35,790 nt of DNA from assembly GCA_028532855.1 (NCBI GenBank), contig JAQQAL010000018.1, positions 1 to 35,790 on the forward strand, read 5' to 3'. This DNA comes from Candidatus Thalassospirochaeta sargassi (GTDB taxonomy: Bacteria; Spirochaetota; Spirochaetia; UBA9216). Positions 27,472 through 32,460 of this stretch are shown here, piece by piece; within the stretch, counting starts at the first letter, position 1, and each line of letters opens with the position of its first letter. A program made the translations under genes and the position numbers. The notes under the pieces were generated by a model, which had not been told where the DNA came from, made no database searches, and saw only the letters and a program-made list of their open reading frames with translations.

Positions 27472-28164
27472 TCAGGAAGACTTGTATTCAGATTTAAAGC
27501 GTGTTTCGATTGAATCTGCGTTATTGACTGTTTTTCGCAGCCATTCAAGCTGGATCTCAGCCTTCTCTTCCTCTGAAAGCTGCCAACCTATGTCGCTGCT
27601 TCGGAGTTTCCAGCTGAGGTGGTGCAAAATCAGCGCGCAGGCAACGGAGATGTTGAAGCTTTCGACAAAGCCGTGCATGGGAATCTTCAGAAACTCATCA
27701 GCTGATTCTTCAACCTCCCTGCTGATTCCTTCAAGCTCGGTTCCAAGCACTATTGCGGTTTTTCCTGTGTTTAAATCGAAATCTTCAAGGTCGGTATCGT
27801 TAGTATGAGGAGTAGTGGCTACAATGCGGTAGCCGTCCTTCTTTAATCTTTCCAGGCACTCAGAAGTGCAGCTGCCGCTATTTGCAGGACTGTTCCGGTT
27901 GATTGAAAGCCATTGGGATGTGCCCATATCAACATCCTTGTTAGGGCTGAAACGGTTTTTGTTTTCAATAATATGAACATCCTGAATGCCGAATCCGTCA
28001 CAGGAGCGGAGAACGGCACTGGCATTATGCGGTTGAAAGATGTCTTCCAGCACGACTGTGATGTATCTTGTGCGTTGTTCAAGAACCTTCATCATTCTGG
28101 ATTTTCTGTTCTCAGTTGTGAATGACTGAAGATGTTCCATCAGTTCTGAATCATAGTTTTTCAT
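27472..28164 (-). CDS. trmH: SpoU/TrmH family RNA 2'-O-methyltransferase (probable tRNA Gm18 methyltransferase)
   Basis: 230 aa, the usual TrmH length. The three SPOUT motifs are present: motif 1 with Asn and Arg (FQPHNASAVLRSCDGFG), motif 2 (AIVLGTELEGIS) and motif 3 (GFVESFNISVACALILHH), which form the trefoil-knot SAM site. The short N-terminal and C-terminal helices (VLEQRTRYITVVLED; EEEKAEIQLEWLRKT) resemble TrmH, which methylates G18 in the tRNA D-loop; related enzymes act on rRNA, so the exact target is a family inference. The ATG overlaps the stop of the hydrogenase-like gene (ATGA), so it belongs to the redox signalling operon. Confidence 0.88.
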   Translation of the reverse strand: MKNYDSELMEHLQSFTTENRKSRMMKVLEQRTRYITVVLEDIFQPHNASAVLRSCDGFGIQDVHIIENKNRFSPNKDVDMGTSQWLSINRNSPANSGSCTSECLERLKKDGYRIVATTPHTNDTDLEDFDLNTGKTAIVLGTELEGISREVEESADEFLKIPMHGFVESFNISVACALILHHLSWKLRSSDIGWQLSEEEKAEIQLEWLRKTVNNADSIETRFKSEYKSS

Positions 28165-29465
28165 TCTTTTTCTTCTCTTTCGGAGAAAAGGGGCGGCATC
28201 CAGGATCCTAACTCGGCAAGGTTTTCGGTGAGGTGGTTTATTTCATCACGAAGTACGAAAATACAGTCATTCTTTTTTGCAGTTCCTACAACTATGTCTT
28301 CAGCAAGAGCCCGGCATGTAGGCGCGCCGCAGGAACCGCAGTCGAGTCCCGGCAGTTCATTCGCAATTTCTTCTATTTTTGCCATCTTTTCAAGGGCTTT
28401 TTTGAAGTCGACATCAAGCTTGAGTCCCTGTTTAGGCTGTATATCAGTATCCATTCCAAGAACGGCATGAGAATCCGGCTTCAGTCTGCCTCCGCGATCT
28501 TCTTCGATTAGTTTTCCGGCTTTCCGGATTATTCTTGCCTTGCTTATATAAGGGTTTTCAACTGTCAGGGCGCCTCCGACGCAGCCGCCGGGGCAGGCCA
28601 TTGCTTCTATGAAATCGACGTGTTTGATTTTGCCGTTTTCAAGTTCTTCAAAAAACTTAAGTACATTTTCAATACCGTCAACTGCCACCGTTTCCGGCCA
28701 TTCTGTAGAATGACTTTCGCCCTCGCTGCGCGCCCAGCTGACTCCCCAGTATGATGCGCGACCGAGTTCCTCGACTTTTTCCAGATTTCCGGCAGCAGCA
28801 TGAAGGGGGAGGAATATTTCATTTATTGCAATCACACCGTCAACCGAAGAAGCTTTTGAACCGATTGGTTTTTTTACAGCAGTTATTTTGGCGGGGCATG
28901 GACTGATGAAAAAAACACCGATATTTTTCTTCTCGGGATATATATCGTTTTTGATAATTCTGGCCGCAATTTCCATAGGCGATTCTATCCGGACTATCTG
29001 ATCCAGCAGAGCGGGAAATCTTATCTGAATAAGCCTGACCACAGCAGGGCAGGATGAGGATATCCATGGAACTTTTTCTTTCTTGTTTTTCAGTTTCTTT
29101 TTGAGTTCGGAGGTTACTATATCTGCAGCCTCAGCCGCTTCGAATACATCGTCAAAACCCAGCTCTTTAAGTGCTGTGAGAATCTGATCAATAGAGAAAT
29201 GATCCTTGAATTGTCCGTAAAGGGTAGGCGCAGGGACGGCTACGGTAAAGTCGAAGTTTTTAAGCATGTCCAGTGTATCAGACTGTGCCCTTTTAGCATG
29301 ATGTGGACATACTCTGATGCATTCCCCGCAGTCGATGCAGCGTTCATCAATGATTGAAGCCTTGCCGTGTCTTACACGAATTGCCTCAGTCGGGCAGTGG
29401 CTGATACAGTTTGTGCAGCCCATGCATTTATCTTTATCCAGTATTACCGAATGAATGTTGCTCAA
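28161..29465 (-). CDS. [FeFe]-hydrogenase-like iron-sulfur protein, probable redox/H2 sensor
   Basis: 434 aa. Residues 1-60 hold two 4Fe-4S motifs (CMGCTNCISHCP and CIDCGECIRVCP). The centre is an Fe-hydrogenase large-subunit domain with the three H-cluster loops: L1 SSSCP (ligand C139), L2 SPCPAK (C190, K193) and L3 ACPGGC (C291, C295). All four expected cluster cysteines are therefore present, but the residue before C139 is Ser, where catalytic enzymes have the proton-transfer Cys of TSCCP. The C-terminus has an RnfB-type cluster motif (CGSCGAPTC, then a Cys about 18 residues later). There is no small subunit, NuoE or NuoF partner nearby. Together this suggests a sensory, not bulk-catalytic, hydrogenase homologue, matching neighbours that encode signalling ATPase and receiver proteins. 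Both ends overlap neighbouring genes. Confidence 0.85.
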   Translation of the reverse strand: MSNIHSVILDKDKCMGCTNCISHCPTEAIRVRHGKASIIDERCIDCGECIRVCPHHAKRAQSDTLDMLKNFDFTVAVPAPTLYGQFKDHFSIDQILTALKELGFDDVFEAAEAADIVTSELKKKLKNKKEKVPWISSSCPAVVRLIQIRFPALLDQIVRIESPMEIAARIIKNDIYPEKKNIGVFFISPCPAKITAVKKPIGSKASSVDGVIAINEIFLPLHAAAGNLEKVEELGRASYWGVSWARSEGESHSTEWPETVAVDGIENVLKFFEELENGKIKHVDFIEAMACPGGCVGGALTVENPYISKARIIRKAGKLIEEDRGGRLKPDSHAVLGMDTDIQPKQGLKLDVDFKKALEKMAKIEEIANELPGLDCGSCGAPTCRALAEDIVVGTAKKNDCIFVLRDEINHLTENLAELGSWMPPLFSEREEKE

Positions 29466-29881
29466 AGATCTATCCTTATTGTTACCTTTGTTCCTTTTCC
29501 CGGTTCAGATTCTATATCGAGTCCGTTGGAGTTCTTTTTTATGTTGGGAAGTCCCAATCCTGCTCCGAAGCCCATTTCTCTTATCTCCGAAGATGCTGTT
29601 GAATAACCTTCCTGCATAGCCAGTTCAATATCCGGGATACCGGGGCCCTGGTCCTCGAAGATAATCAGAATATGATCATCTTCTATAACAACACTTCCCG
29701 AACCCCCTCCGCCGTGAATAATTGTATTTATTTCCGCTTCATACATAGCTATAGCGGTACGCTTTATTATGGGTGAGGGAATTCCCAGCTGTTTCAGCGT
29801 TTTCTTAAAATTACTTGAAGCCTGTCCATATGCCATGGGGTCATTGGAATCTATATCAAATTTTTTGCTGAAAAGTGCCAT
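29462..29881 (-). CDS. RsbW/RsbT-like ATP-binding protein (HATPase_c, anti-sigma kinase type)
   Basis: 139 aa, a single GHKL ATPase domain without a dimerisation or sensor domain. N-box around residues 47-57 (YEAEINTIIHG), G1 EDQGPGIPD (76-84) and G2 GFGAGLGL (104-111). These are the marks of RsbW/RsbT-type serine kinases, which phosphorylate antagonist proteins rather than histidines. Its stop overlaps the start of the hydrogenase-like gene by 4 bp, and the stand-alone receiver gene lies 29 bp upstream. The likely role is the output or input switch of the redox sensor. Only a weak GAG precedes ATG 29881. No STAS-domain antagonist is in the window, so the partner is unknown. Confidence 0.85.
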   Translation of the reverse strand: MALFSKKFDIDSNDPMAYGQASSNFKKTLKQLGIPSPIIKRTAIAMYEAEINTIIHGGGGSGSVVIEDDHILIIFEDQGPGIPDIELAMQEGYSTASSEIREMGFGAGLGLPNIKKNSNGLDIESEPGKGTKVTIRIDL

Positions 29882-29910
29882 TACGACTCAATATAACAGA
29901 GAAGAGGGGA

Positions 29911-30297
29911 TCAGTCTACGTATTTGGAAATTACTTCGATGAGGGTTTCTTCATTCAAGGGTTTAACTACGACGTCGTCCATTCCTGCATCAAGGAATTT
30001 TTTCCTGTCTGAGGGAAAGGCGTGTGCTGTTAATGCGATTATCGGTAAATGCTGTCCGCCGGTTTCTTCTTCCCTTATCTGGATTGTAGCGTCTATTCCG
30101 TTGAGCCGGGGCATGCTAATGTCCATAAGAACTGCATCATAATCATTTTTTTTGATGGAATCTATGGCCTCCTGGCCGTCGGAAGCCTCATGTATATCCC
30201 AGCCGTTGCGCTCAAGAATAGTTGTAATATACATTCGATTGATAGCTTCGTCTTCGGTCACGAGTAATTTAAGTTTCTTTTTTCTGATGTCAGACAT
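29911..30297 (-). CDS. Stand-alone receiver-domain protein (CheY/Spo0F-like)
   Basis: 128 aa, one receiver domain and nothing else. Acidic pocket E15/D16, phosphoacceptor D59 in LMDISMPRLNG, the conserved Thr in IIALTAHA (about residue 90) and the Lys of VVVKPL near the end are all in place, so it should be phosphorylatable. The text resembles the receiver segments that accompany hybrid kinases (TEDEAINRMY). ATG 30297 has GGAG 8 nt upstream and a promoter at 30331-30360. It is the first gene of receiver - RsbW-like ATPase - hydrogenase-like protein - trmH. No kinase lies nearby, so its phosphodonor is unknown. Confidence 0.9.
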   Translation of the reverse strand: MSDIRKKKLKLLVTEDEAINRMYITTILERNGWDIHEASDGQEAIDSIKKNDYDAVLMDISMPRLNGIDATIQIREEETGGQHLPIIALTAHAFPSDRKKFLDAGMDDVVVKPLNEETLIEVISKYVD

Positions 30298-30380: not shown

Positions 30381-32390
30381 CTATTTTTTACCCGGGGTCT
30401 TCATGTTAATCATATCCGCAAGGGTGAATGTGTCGGAACTGTCGTCTGAGTACTGTTTTATCAGTTTCCGGGTGACCGCACGTTCTTTCGGGGATGGTTT
30501 TCGATATCCCCCGCGGTTTTCCGGTTCCTCCTCATATCCGCAGGATAGTGAACGGCAGACATACAATTCACGTCCCCTGCGATCCTTTGTCGGCATCATC
30601 ATCCTTCCGCATAGCGGACATGGCTTTTTACTGAATTCGACAGGTTTGTAATCTTTGCCGCCGGATTTTACAGCTGCAACAAGCTCTCCGGTATTTTTTC
30701 GTATATCAGAACTGAACACTCCGGCTTTTTCTTTTCCTTCAGCGATTCTGCTAAGCCTCTTTTCCCATTCAGCGGTAAGTTCAGCGGATTTCAGCTGCTC
30801 GGGAACCAGCAGAAGGACCTCTTCACCGGCCGGGGTAAGCTTCAGTGCTGAGCCGGAACGCTCCATATATCTGTTTGAGAGCAGTTTTTCGATGATGTCA
30901 GCCCTGGTTGCCGGTGTTCCAAGATTGTTTTTTTCCATTAATGCAAGAAGGCTTGCCTCTGTATGGTGTCCCGGTGGGGTTGTCTGTTTCTGCTGCAGGC
31001 GGGTTGATTCAATTTTATACTTCTGTCCCTTCTTCAGATTATCTATCTTACCTGAGCCCGATCTTTCGTTTTCTCCGTTTTCTACAGCTATAAACTCAAT
31101 ATTCCGCCATCCTTCATCTGTGACTCTGCTGCTTGAGACAAAGAATGATTCACCCTCTGCTCTCAATTCCGCGCTGCGTTTTACATAGCAGTGAGGGGGG
31201 GAGAGGACAGCGAGGAAGCGTTTTACTATCATGTTCCATAAGGCTTTTTCTTCAGCGGACAATCGTTCGGGTTTTACCGTCTCCTCGGTTGGGATTATCG
31301 CATGATGATCGCTGACCCGACTGTCATCGAATAGCCGCTTTCCCGGTTTTAGGCTGCTTTTCTGTATTTCTTCCGCGCGTACACGCCAGTCGGTTGCGTA
31401 TAGAGCTTTGAGGCGGTCCTTGATAGTTGGTTCTATATCGGCAGTAAGATGTCTTGAGTCTGTTCTTGGGTAGGTTACTATTTTATGTCTTTCATATAAG
31501 CCCTGAAGAATTTTAAGTGTCTGCTTTGCGGAATATCCCAGAGCCCGGTTGGCATCCTGCTGAAGTGCTGTAAGGTCATAGGCCAGCGGAGGCGGTACAC
31601 TCTGCTTTTTTTCGGAGATATTAACTACCTCGGCTTCAGTGTTCTCGAGCTTTGAGGTCAACTCCGCACTTGCTTTCCCGGAGAATATTCTTCCGCCTGA
31701 TTTTCCCCGCCATGAGGCTGAGAATCCGCCGAAGTCGGCTTCAAGCAGCTGATAGGGTTTTGGTTTGAAATTGCGGATCTGTTCATCTCTGTCCTGAATC
31801 ATTGCCAGGCTTGGGGTCTGAACGCGACCGGCAGACAGGCGGGTGTCGTAGGTACAGGATAGGGCGCGGGTTACATTCAGGCCTATCAGCCAGTCTGCTT
31901 CAGCCCGGCATTCAGCAGCCCTCATCAGATTGTCATAATCTCGGCCGTTTTTTAATGCAGCAAAGCCCTCCCGTATGGCTTTATCGGTCTGAGAGCTGAT
32001 CCAGAGTCGCTGGAAGGGCCCCTTGTATCCGCCAAGTCTCATAACCCATCTGGCTACCAGCTCGCCTTCACGCCCTGCATCGGTTGCAATGATCAGGTTA
32101 TTTACTTCTTTCCGGTGCATAAGTGATTTAATCATGCTGAACTGTCTTGATGTGCGGCCTATAACCCTGTGCTTCATCCGCTCAGGTATAATCGGAAGAT
32201 CCTCTGCGTTCCACTGCTTGAATTTGGGATCATGGGCACCGGGATCCGCAAGTTCTACAAGATGTCCCATTGCCCATGTGACAATATATTTGTCGCCTTC
32301 AATATGACTTTTGGATGATTTTTTACAGCCAAGGACACGGGCAAGCTCCCGTCCTACACTTGGTTTTTCAGCAATGATCAGTGTTTTCAT
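30381..32390 (-). CDS. topB: DNA topoisomerase III (type IA)
   Basis: 669 aa. The N-terminal Toprim domain opens IIAEKPSVGRELARVLG, and the acidic pair is in ATDAGREGELVARW. The active-site tyrosine is Y307 in VTYPRTDSRHL, inside the type IA core with SAGRVQTPSLAMI upstream. The C-terminus has a single zinc ribbon (CPLC ... CRSLSC), then a Lys-rich tail ending in KTPGKK. It breaks and rejoins single strands to unlink recombination and replication intermediates, often with RecQ. The ATG at 32390 gives the normal start; it has no clear ribosome site, and a TAAAAT box ends 7 nt before it (weak -35). It is divergent from the MCP gene. The frame extends further upstream, but that part is not family-like. 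Confidence 0.95.
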   Translation of the reverse strand: MKTLIIAEKPSVGRELARVLGCKKSSKSHIEGDKYIVTWAMGHLVELADPGAHDPKFKQWNAEDLPIIPERMKHRVIGRTSRQFSMIKSLMHRKEVNNLIIATDAGREGELVARWVMRLGGYKGPFQRLWISSQTDKAIREGFAALKNGRDYDNLMRAAECRAEADWLIGLNVTRALSCTYDTRLSAGRVQTPSLAMIQDRDEQIRNFKPKPYQLLEADFGGFSASWRGKSGGRIFSGKASAELTSKLENTEAEVVNISEKKQSVPPPLAYDLTALQQDANRALGYSAKQTLKILQGLYERHKIVTYPRTDSRHLTADIEPTIKDRLKALYATDWRVRAEEIQKSSLKPGKRLFDDSRVSDHHAIIPTEETVKPERLSAEEKALWNMIVKRFLAVLSPPHCYVKRSAELRAEGESFFVSSSRVTDEGWRNIEFIAVENGENERSGSGKIDNLKKGQKYKIESTRLQQKQTTPPGHHTEASLLALMEKNNLGTPATRADIIEKLLSNRYMERSGSALKLTPAGEEVLLLVPEQLKSAELTAEWEKRLSRIAEGKEKAGVFSSDIRKNTGELVAAVKSGGKDYKPVEFSKKPCPLCGRMMMPTKDRRGRELYVCRSLSCGYEEEPENRGGYRKPSPKERAVTRKLIKQYSDDSSDTFTLADMINMKTPGKK

Positions 32391-32460
32391 GCCGCCGATT
32401 TTAATATGAAACGGATAAAGAATAAAGAGCGGGAGCATAAGTATAAATGTGCTTTATTTT

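Follow-up and report, generated by a model that had tools for sequence, protein, structure and literature searches.

In the DNA of Candidatus Thalassospirochaeta sargassi analyzed here (35,790 nucleotides of contig JAQQAL010000018.1, referred to as the window), a group D [FeFe]-hydrogenase-like protein, HydS, is encoded directly downstream of a small ATPase of the SpoIIAB/RsbW fold, and the same order of ATPase and HydS recurs across phyla, far beyond chance. Judged by gene order, this pair is the conserved core of the unit, for which the DRTGG, PHP, and hydABC genes of other bacteria form a wider setting, and to which the receiver is a genus-level addition. While the type of sensor is already known, the arrangement and the identity of its partner ATPase are new.

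The locus and its group D hydrogenase-like protein

The four genes are transcribed from the minus strand in the order receiver, ATPase, HydS, and TrmH (Table 1); the start of hydS overlaps the stop of the ATPase gene by 4 bases (TTGA), and trmH and hydS likewise share a 4-base overlap. Open frames, Pfam matches, and residues agree that all four are real genes correctly described in the initial annotation, including the receiver and the RsbW-like ATPase domain, the latter matching HATPase_c/HATPase_c_2 (PF02518/PF13581). The operon at this locus holds neither NuoE nor NuoF, and a promoter and terminator scan of the unit gave no clear signal above shuffles. The topB-like gene, which recurs as a neighbor in two congeners (L039 and L041), is not part of the signaling unit. 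TrmH was considered as a component of the system and rejected, as it adjoins HydS in this genus only and probably does not belong to the signaling unit.

Table 1. Genes of the HydS locus and its upstream neighbor (positions in the window)
Feature	Position	Strand	Remarks
Receiver, stand-alone, 128 aa	29911-30297	-	PF00072 Response_reg; E15 D16, D59, T90, K112
ATPase, SpoIIAB/RsbW-fold (anti-sigma/serine-kinase type), 139 aa	29462-29881	-	N-box E48/N52, G1 D77-G79-P80-G81, G2 G104-G110
HydS, group D (M2e) [FeFe]-hydrogenase-like, 434 aa	28161-29465	-	TTG start
trmH, TrmH-like SpoU-family RNA methyltransferase	27472-28164	-	open frame
topB-like DNA topoisomerase	30381-32438	-	83 bases upstream of receiver, same strand

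HydS comprises two [4Fe-4S] motifs (residues 8-57), an H-domain (74-299), and a C-terminal FeS domain (371-403), recognized by Pfam as two Fer4 motifs, Fe_hyd_lg_C, and the FeS motif PF04060, while the same search found no PAS domain. All of its 16 cysteines are cluster ligands: eight lie in the two N-terminal motifs, four in the H-cluster (C139, C190, C291, and C295, with Ser138 in front, exactly as annotated), and four in a C-terminal Cx2Cx4Cx16C, each of the three accessory clusters thereby retaining all its ligands (12 in total). This order is the one given by Land et al. for group D, or M2e, namely two N-terminal [4Fe-4S] clusters, the H-domain, and a C-terminal Cx2Cx4Cx16C without PAS, accompanied by loss of Cys299 and by a change of Met353 to Ser or Thr (PMC8163306). 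In HydS the Cys299 position is likewise replaced, and S188 represents the Met353 change.

Phylogeny of the H-domain leads to the same assignment. In a tree of 69 rows covering groups A-D, HydS fell within a clade of 49 group D rows, separated from groups A, B, and C with a support of 100/98, and the group C clade stood separate from it (99/95). The tree was anchored by two near relatives of TamHydS (L164 and L168), which were recognized by published residues and by primer-encoded TamHydS peptides; the Thermoanaerobacter-like L168 departs from the published TamHydS residue positions only at 126, where it has R for K. HydS is 51% identical to this protein over 437 columns, end to end, as against 24-28% to group C and 22-25% to group A proteins. 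Besides lying outside the group C clade, it is without the C-terminal PAS of that group, and group A is contradicted by its place in the tree, by the replacement of Cys299 and Met353, and by the absence of the small-subunit domain. Thus, the comparison with groups A-D proposed in the initial annotation puts HydS into group D and not among the catalytic group A enzymes, and its sequence gives no reason to set it apart from the “putative sensory” [FeFe] hydrogenases already known as group D (M2e). The PAS-less architecture formerly taken as a novelty is therefore one already described, and the RnfB-type motif believed to stand in place of PAS is common to groups C and D (PMC8163306). A sensor with an unprecedented mix of domains was rejected, since the domain architecture equals that of group D.

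The serine in front of C139 had also been read as the loss of the proton-shuttling residue. However, Cabotaje et al. described a proton path formed by E252, E289, S249, and D265 that is conserved in group D, with only E289 found also elsewhere (PMC10407848), and S247, E250, D263, and E287 of HydS occupy the columns of TamHydS S249, E252, D265, and E289. As this four-residue path is intact by alignment, a serine in place of the former cysteine is no sign of a missing proton path. Ser138 is fixed in the clade to which HydS belongs (11/11), and among group D rows outside the spirochaetes the Cys299 column holds alanine in 22 of 28 and serine in five. In several spirochaete families (L051-L054 and L056-L058), HydS mostly carries Tyr or Phe at this position, and next to its gene, in opposite orientation, lies one for a PreP/M16C-type peptidase.

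The ATPase and its linkage to HydS

An alignment profile of the ATPase ranked SpoIIAB (4e-11) and RsbW from the PDB before histidine kinases. Consistent with this, its predicted model (pLDDT 93.8) matched SpoIIAB with a Z of 19.5 and an rmsd of 1.9 over 132 of 139 residues, followed by RsbW (Z ~14.5), the Bergerat domain of LvrC (13.5), and histidine kinases and PDKs (~10). Residues E48, N52, D77, G79, G81, G104, G106, G108, and G110 are invariant in a 60-row alignment. A histidine-kinase type was rejected, as SpoIIAB fits far better from end to end. The protein nevertheless stays below the family cut-offs, reaching 49.8 against 135 bits for the SpoIIAB equivalog TIGR01925 and 27.1 against 27.4 for PF13581, and hence we propose a SpoIIAB-like mode of working and do not claim orthology. 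The operon contains no STAS or sigma factor gene; three small STAS proteins are encoded elsewhere in the genome, with no evident link to the unit.

A histidine kinase-like ATPase beside TamHydS was already remarked upon in PMC8163306, to which our study adds the fold of the ATPase, the breadth of the linkage, and a stripped-down spirochaete version. The linkage of the two genes, for which co-occurrence in other genomes had been suggested as a check, is near-universal: in every one of the 21 spirochaete loci, the ATPase gene directly precedes hydS on the same strand (gap of -26 to 39 bases), and in 106 of the 108 non-spirochaete loci it is found no more than 1.5 kb away, with a gap of at most 60 bases in 81 of them. 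The loci without it are L065 and L127. From other genomes, 79 loci were compared, drawn chiefly from Bacillota, to a lesser extent from Atribacterota, and in single cases from further phyla. They show the order DRTGG-ATPase-HydS-(DRTGG)-PHP, often with NuoE-HATPase-ferredoxin-NuoF-HydA (hydABC) close by; DRTGG is found in 78 and PHP in 69 of the 79, and NuoF, counted for loci no shorter than 13 kb, in 35 of 48. All these counts depend on contig ends. A literature search on DRTGG and hydrogenase returned a single paper, in which each is mentioned once. In this genus, the HydS-ATPase pair is split off from the hydABC operon that accompanies it in other bacteria. Absence of electron-transfer partners, held initially to mark a sensor, applies to the present operon but does not extend to Clostridia, where hydABC stands in the same cluster; HydS keeps its group D architecture there as well, and hence appears as a sensor accompanying hydABC rather than as a catalytic subunit. 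A divergent HydS (33% identity) in genome G028 lies with ATPase, HATPase, and PHP genes (L055:3-9090) and adjoins an NADH-linked molybdopterin (formate-dehydrogenase-like) operon, not hydABC.

The conserved linkage initially expected for the receiver did not extend beyond one genus. It was present at the HydS locus in all five sampled genomes of the genus, but at none of the 16 other spirochaete loci and none of the 79 others, and across ten relatives the best match away from the HydS locus was 43% identical. The receiver as a general partner of HydS was therefore rejected.

Other hydrogenases and their maturation

Five PF02906 proteins are encoded in the source genome. Two are group A HydA, one on contig C14 together with NuoE, HATPase, ferredoxin, and NuoF genes, the other on C52, while contig C35 carries a B-type enzyme and, accompanied by a SpoIIE phosphatase, a HydS of group C; the group D HydS encoded in the window is the fifth. 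HydS is absent from the surroundings of hydABC on C14, where genes for a PAS histidine kinase, PHP, DRTGG, a CBS-CBS-SpoIIAB-like ATPase fusion, and another DRTGG are found; the regulatory set from PHP to the second DRTGG occupies L156:12234-14546 on the minus strand. Genomes G002 and G003 have a similar set next to hydABC, of which G051 shows a part. The PAS kinase next to hydA was considered as the kinase of the receiver, but as it occurs in the source genome and G003 and not at the hydABC locus of G002, the case was judged too weak. Group A HydA of hydABC-type loci (for instance L008:5409-7172) show TSCSPGW instead of TSCCP(A/G)W as L1 motif in 43 of 57 cases, which puts Ser at an aligned H-cluster ligand position and may be a matter of alignment or a known variation.

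In the source genome, which is 100% complete in 53 contigs, no acceptable match was found for a HydE-like radical SAM protein, HydF, or HydG, the best HydF match reaching 86 bits against a cut-off of 325. Likewise, HydG and HydE-like proteins had no match in G001, G004, G005, and G006, nor HydF in G001 and G003-G006; G003 gave one weak radical-SAM match. These assemblies are drafts, with a completeness of 96-97% for G001, G003, and G006. The congener G002 does contain HydF-AspA-HydE, with two sets of NifH-like and nitrogenase-component-like genes downstream in the same orientation (L222:772-9646, minus strand), while HydG was found neither at this locus nor elsewhere in its genome. Across 60 genomes of other spirochaetes, HydG was detected in 21 and HydF in 25 at an E value of 1e-60. 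Sister genomes with a common flank differ in this region, G031 having HydG-HydE-AspA-HydF (L226:5923-12607) and G051 only HydE-HydF (L225:5044-9330). The maturase genes may have been missed by the drafts; otherwise, the hydrogenases of this lineage are matured by another route or stay immature. As a consequence, assembly of the H-cluster in HydS is uncertain and may not take place, so that redox, in place of H2, has to be considered as the signal.

A proposed signaling route and its alternatives

We lean, by a modest degree, towards a model in which the group D sensor HydS acts through the SpoIIAB-like anti-sigma factor or serine kinase, with the receiver as a second input. The H-cluster and the three accessory [4Fe-4S] clusters would change state in response to H2 or to the redox poise of the ferredoxin pool, and the C-terminal cluster domain would pass this state on to the ATPase dimer, whose nucleotide state or partner might then change and alter its serine-kinase or anti-sigma activity. 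The target may be encoded elsewhere, as a STAS protein, a sigma factor, or a DRTGG protein, the latter being an adjoining gene in other bacteria. In this genus, the receiver, fed by a histidine kinase, would bind the same ATPase, like in LvrC of Leptospira. Likely, the output comprises fermentation and hydrogenase genes, because the pair adjoins hydABC in other bacteria. The model draws on gene order, domains, group D membership, the predicted fold, intact ATP-binding motifs, the proton path, and the pairing itself, and from these we infer physical contact, direction of signaling, kinase activity, target, and H2 as the signal; in the literature we found no report of contact or activity of any group D HydS with an ATPase. 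The idea of a sensor acting through an RsbW-type partner, as first put forward for this locus, is thus sustained by group D membership, the SpoIIAB fold, and the ATPase linkage, but not by the receiver, whose linkage is confined to the genus.

Without maturation, HydS would have its four [4Fe-4S] clusters while lacking the [2Fe] subcluster, and would report ferredoxin redox state and not H2 via the same ATPase. This fits the failure to find HydE-like, HydF, and HydG proteins in the source genome, and HydF or HydG in G001, G003, and G006, as well as the complete set of accessory-cluster ligands. However, hydABC of the source genome has canonical H-cluster motifs and would be useless without maturation, the conserved proton-path residues near the [2Fe] site would be left unexplained, G002 possesses HydE and HydF, and draft assemblies could miss maturase genes; we hold a redox-only sensor to be improbable. 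Its stronger form, by which the lineage has lost HydE, HydF, and HydG and HydS now controls an anti-sigma factor as an FeS-only redox sensor with the receiver as second input, seems distinctly unlikely, although, if true, a hydrogenase fold would here be used purely for signaling, in a split LvrC-type switch.

It is also rather unlikely that HydS is a slow catalytic enzyme balancing ferredoxin electrons, with the ATPase as its assembly or chaperone factor and not as a signaling partner. Such a role would agree with TamHydS being catalytically active, if about thousandfold slower than group A (PMC11803613), with the intact proton path, and with an ATPase gene that almost always accompanies HydS. 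On the other hand, two group A HydA and a B-type enzyme are already available in this genome, L065 and L127 encode HydS without the ATPase, and the cluster partners elsewhere (DRTGG, CBS, PHP) look regulatory. Furthermore, we know of no FeS or hydrogenase chaperone with a SpoIIAB/RsbW fold. Very unlikely, finally, is a two-component output in which the ATPase would supply the catalytic half of a histidine kinase acting on the receiver beside it, with HydS as the sensor: the receiver adjoins the ATPase in five of five genomes of the genus and its phosphorylation site is intact, but the ATPase is without the helix pair bearing a phosphorylatable His, it matches SpoIIAB end to end and far better than a histidine-kinase CA domain, and such a receiver is missing from 16 of 21 spirochaete and all 79 other loci.

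How group D HydS pass their signal on was asked directly in PMC8163306, and the role of the C-terminal clusters is still called poorly understood (PMC13104023). For our preferred reading, a sensor acting through the SpoIIAB-like ATPase, the near-universal pairing names one concrete and testable partner. The smallest version of the unit, ATPase plus HydS, is represented by spirochaete loci without hydABC and in many families also without DRTGG and PHP. Through the receiver, a phosphorelay could converge with the sensing of H2 or redox state.

Compared with TamHydS of Thermoanaerobacter mathranii (PMC8163306, PMC10407848, PMC13104023), the spirochaete protein shares the domain order without PAS, the Met353-to-Ser change, the proton-path residues, the C-terminal Cx2Cx4Cx16C with flanking Asp residues, and the ATPase gene alongside, but carries Ser where TamHydS has Ala in place of Cys299 and keeps Met at 497; furthermore, its unit stands apart from hydABC, with a receiver where TamHydS has DRTGG and AraC neighbors. 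According to a paper cited in PMC13104023, the secondary structure of TamHydS changes on reaction with H2. Group C HydS encoded with a SpoIIE phosphatase (TmHydS, hfs-type operons) resemble our protein in the sensory H-domain and the C-terminal FeS motif, whereas they have PAS and a PP2C phosphatase in place of the SpoIIAB-like ATPase. The HydS of R. albus, for which PMC11837493 cites a requirement at high H2, belongs to the PAS type and serves as an analogy only. With the SpoIIAB/RsbW serine kinases, the ATPase has in common the fold over its whole length, the ATP-binding motifs, and the N-box Glu, but it remains below the equivalog cut-off, has no STAS or sigma gene nearby, and is paired with HydS instead. 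The combination of receiver and ATPase has a close precedent in Leptospira LvrC, in which a receiver is fused to an RsbW-type domain and which was proposed as a receiver-regulated anti-sigma factor (PMC13269768). By genes and predicted fold, including the Bergerat-domain match, both bring together a receiver and an RsbW-type ATPase in a spirochaete, yet here the two are separate proteins, to which a group D HydS has been added.
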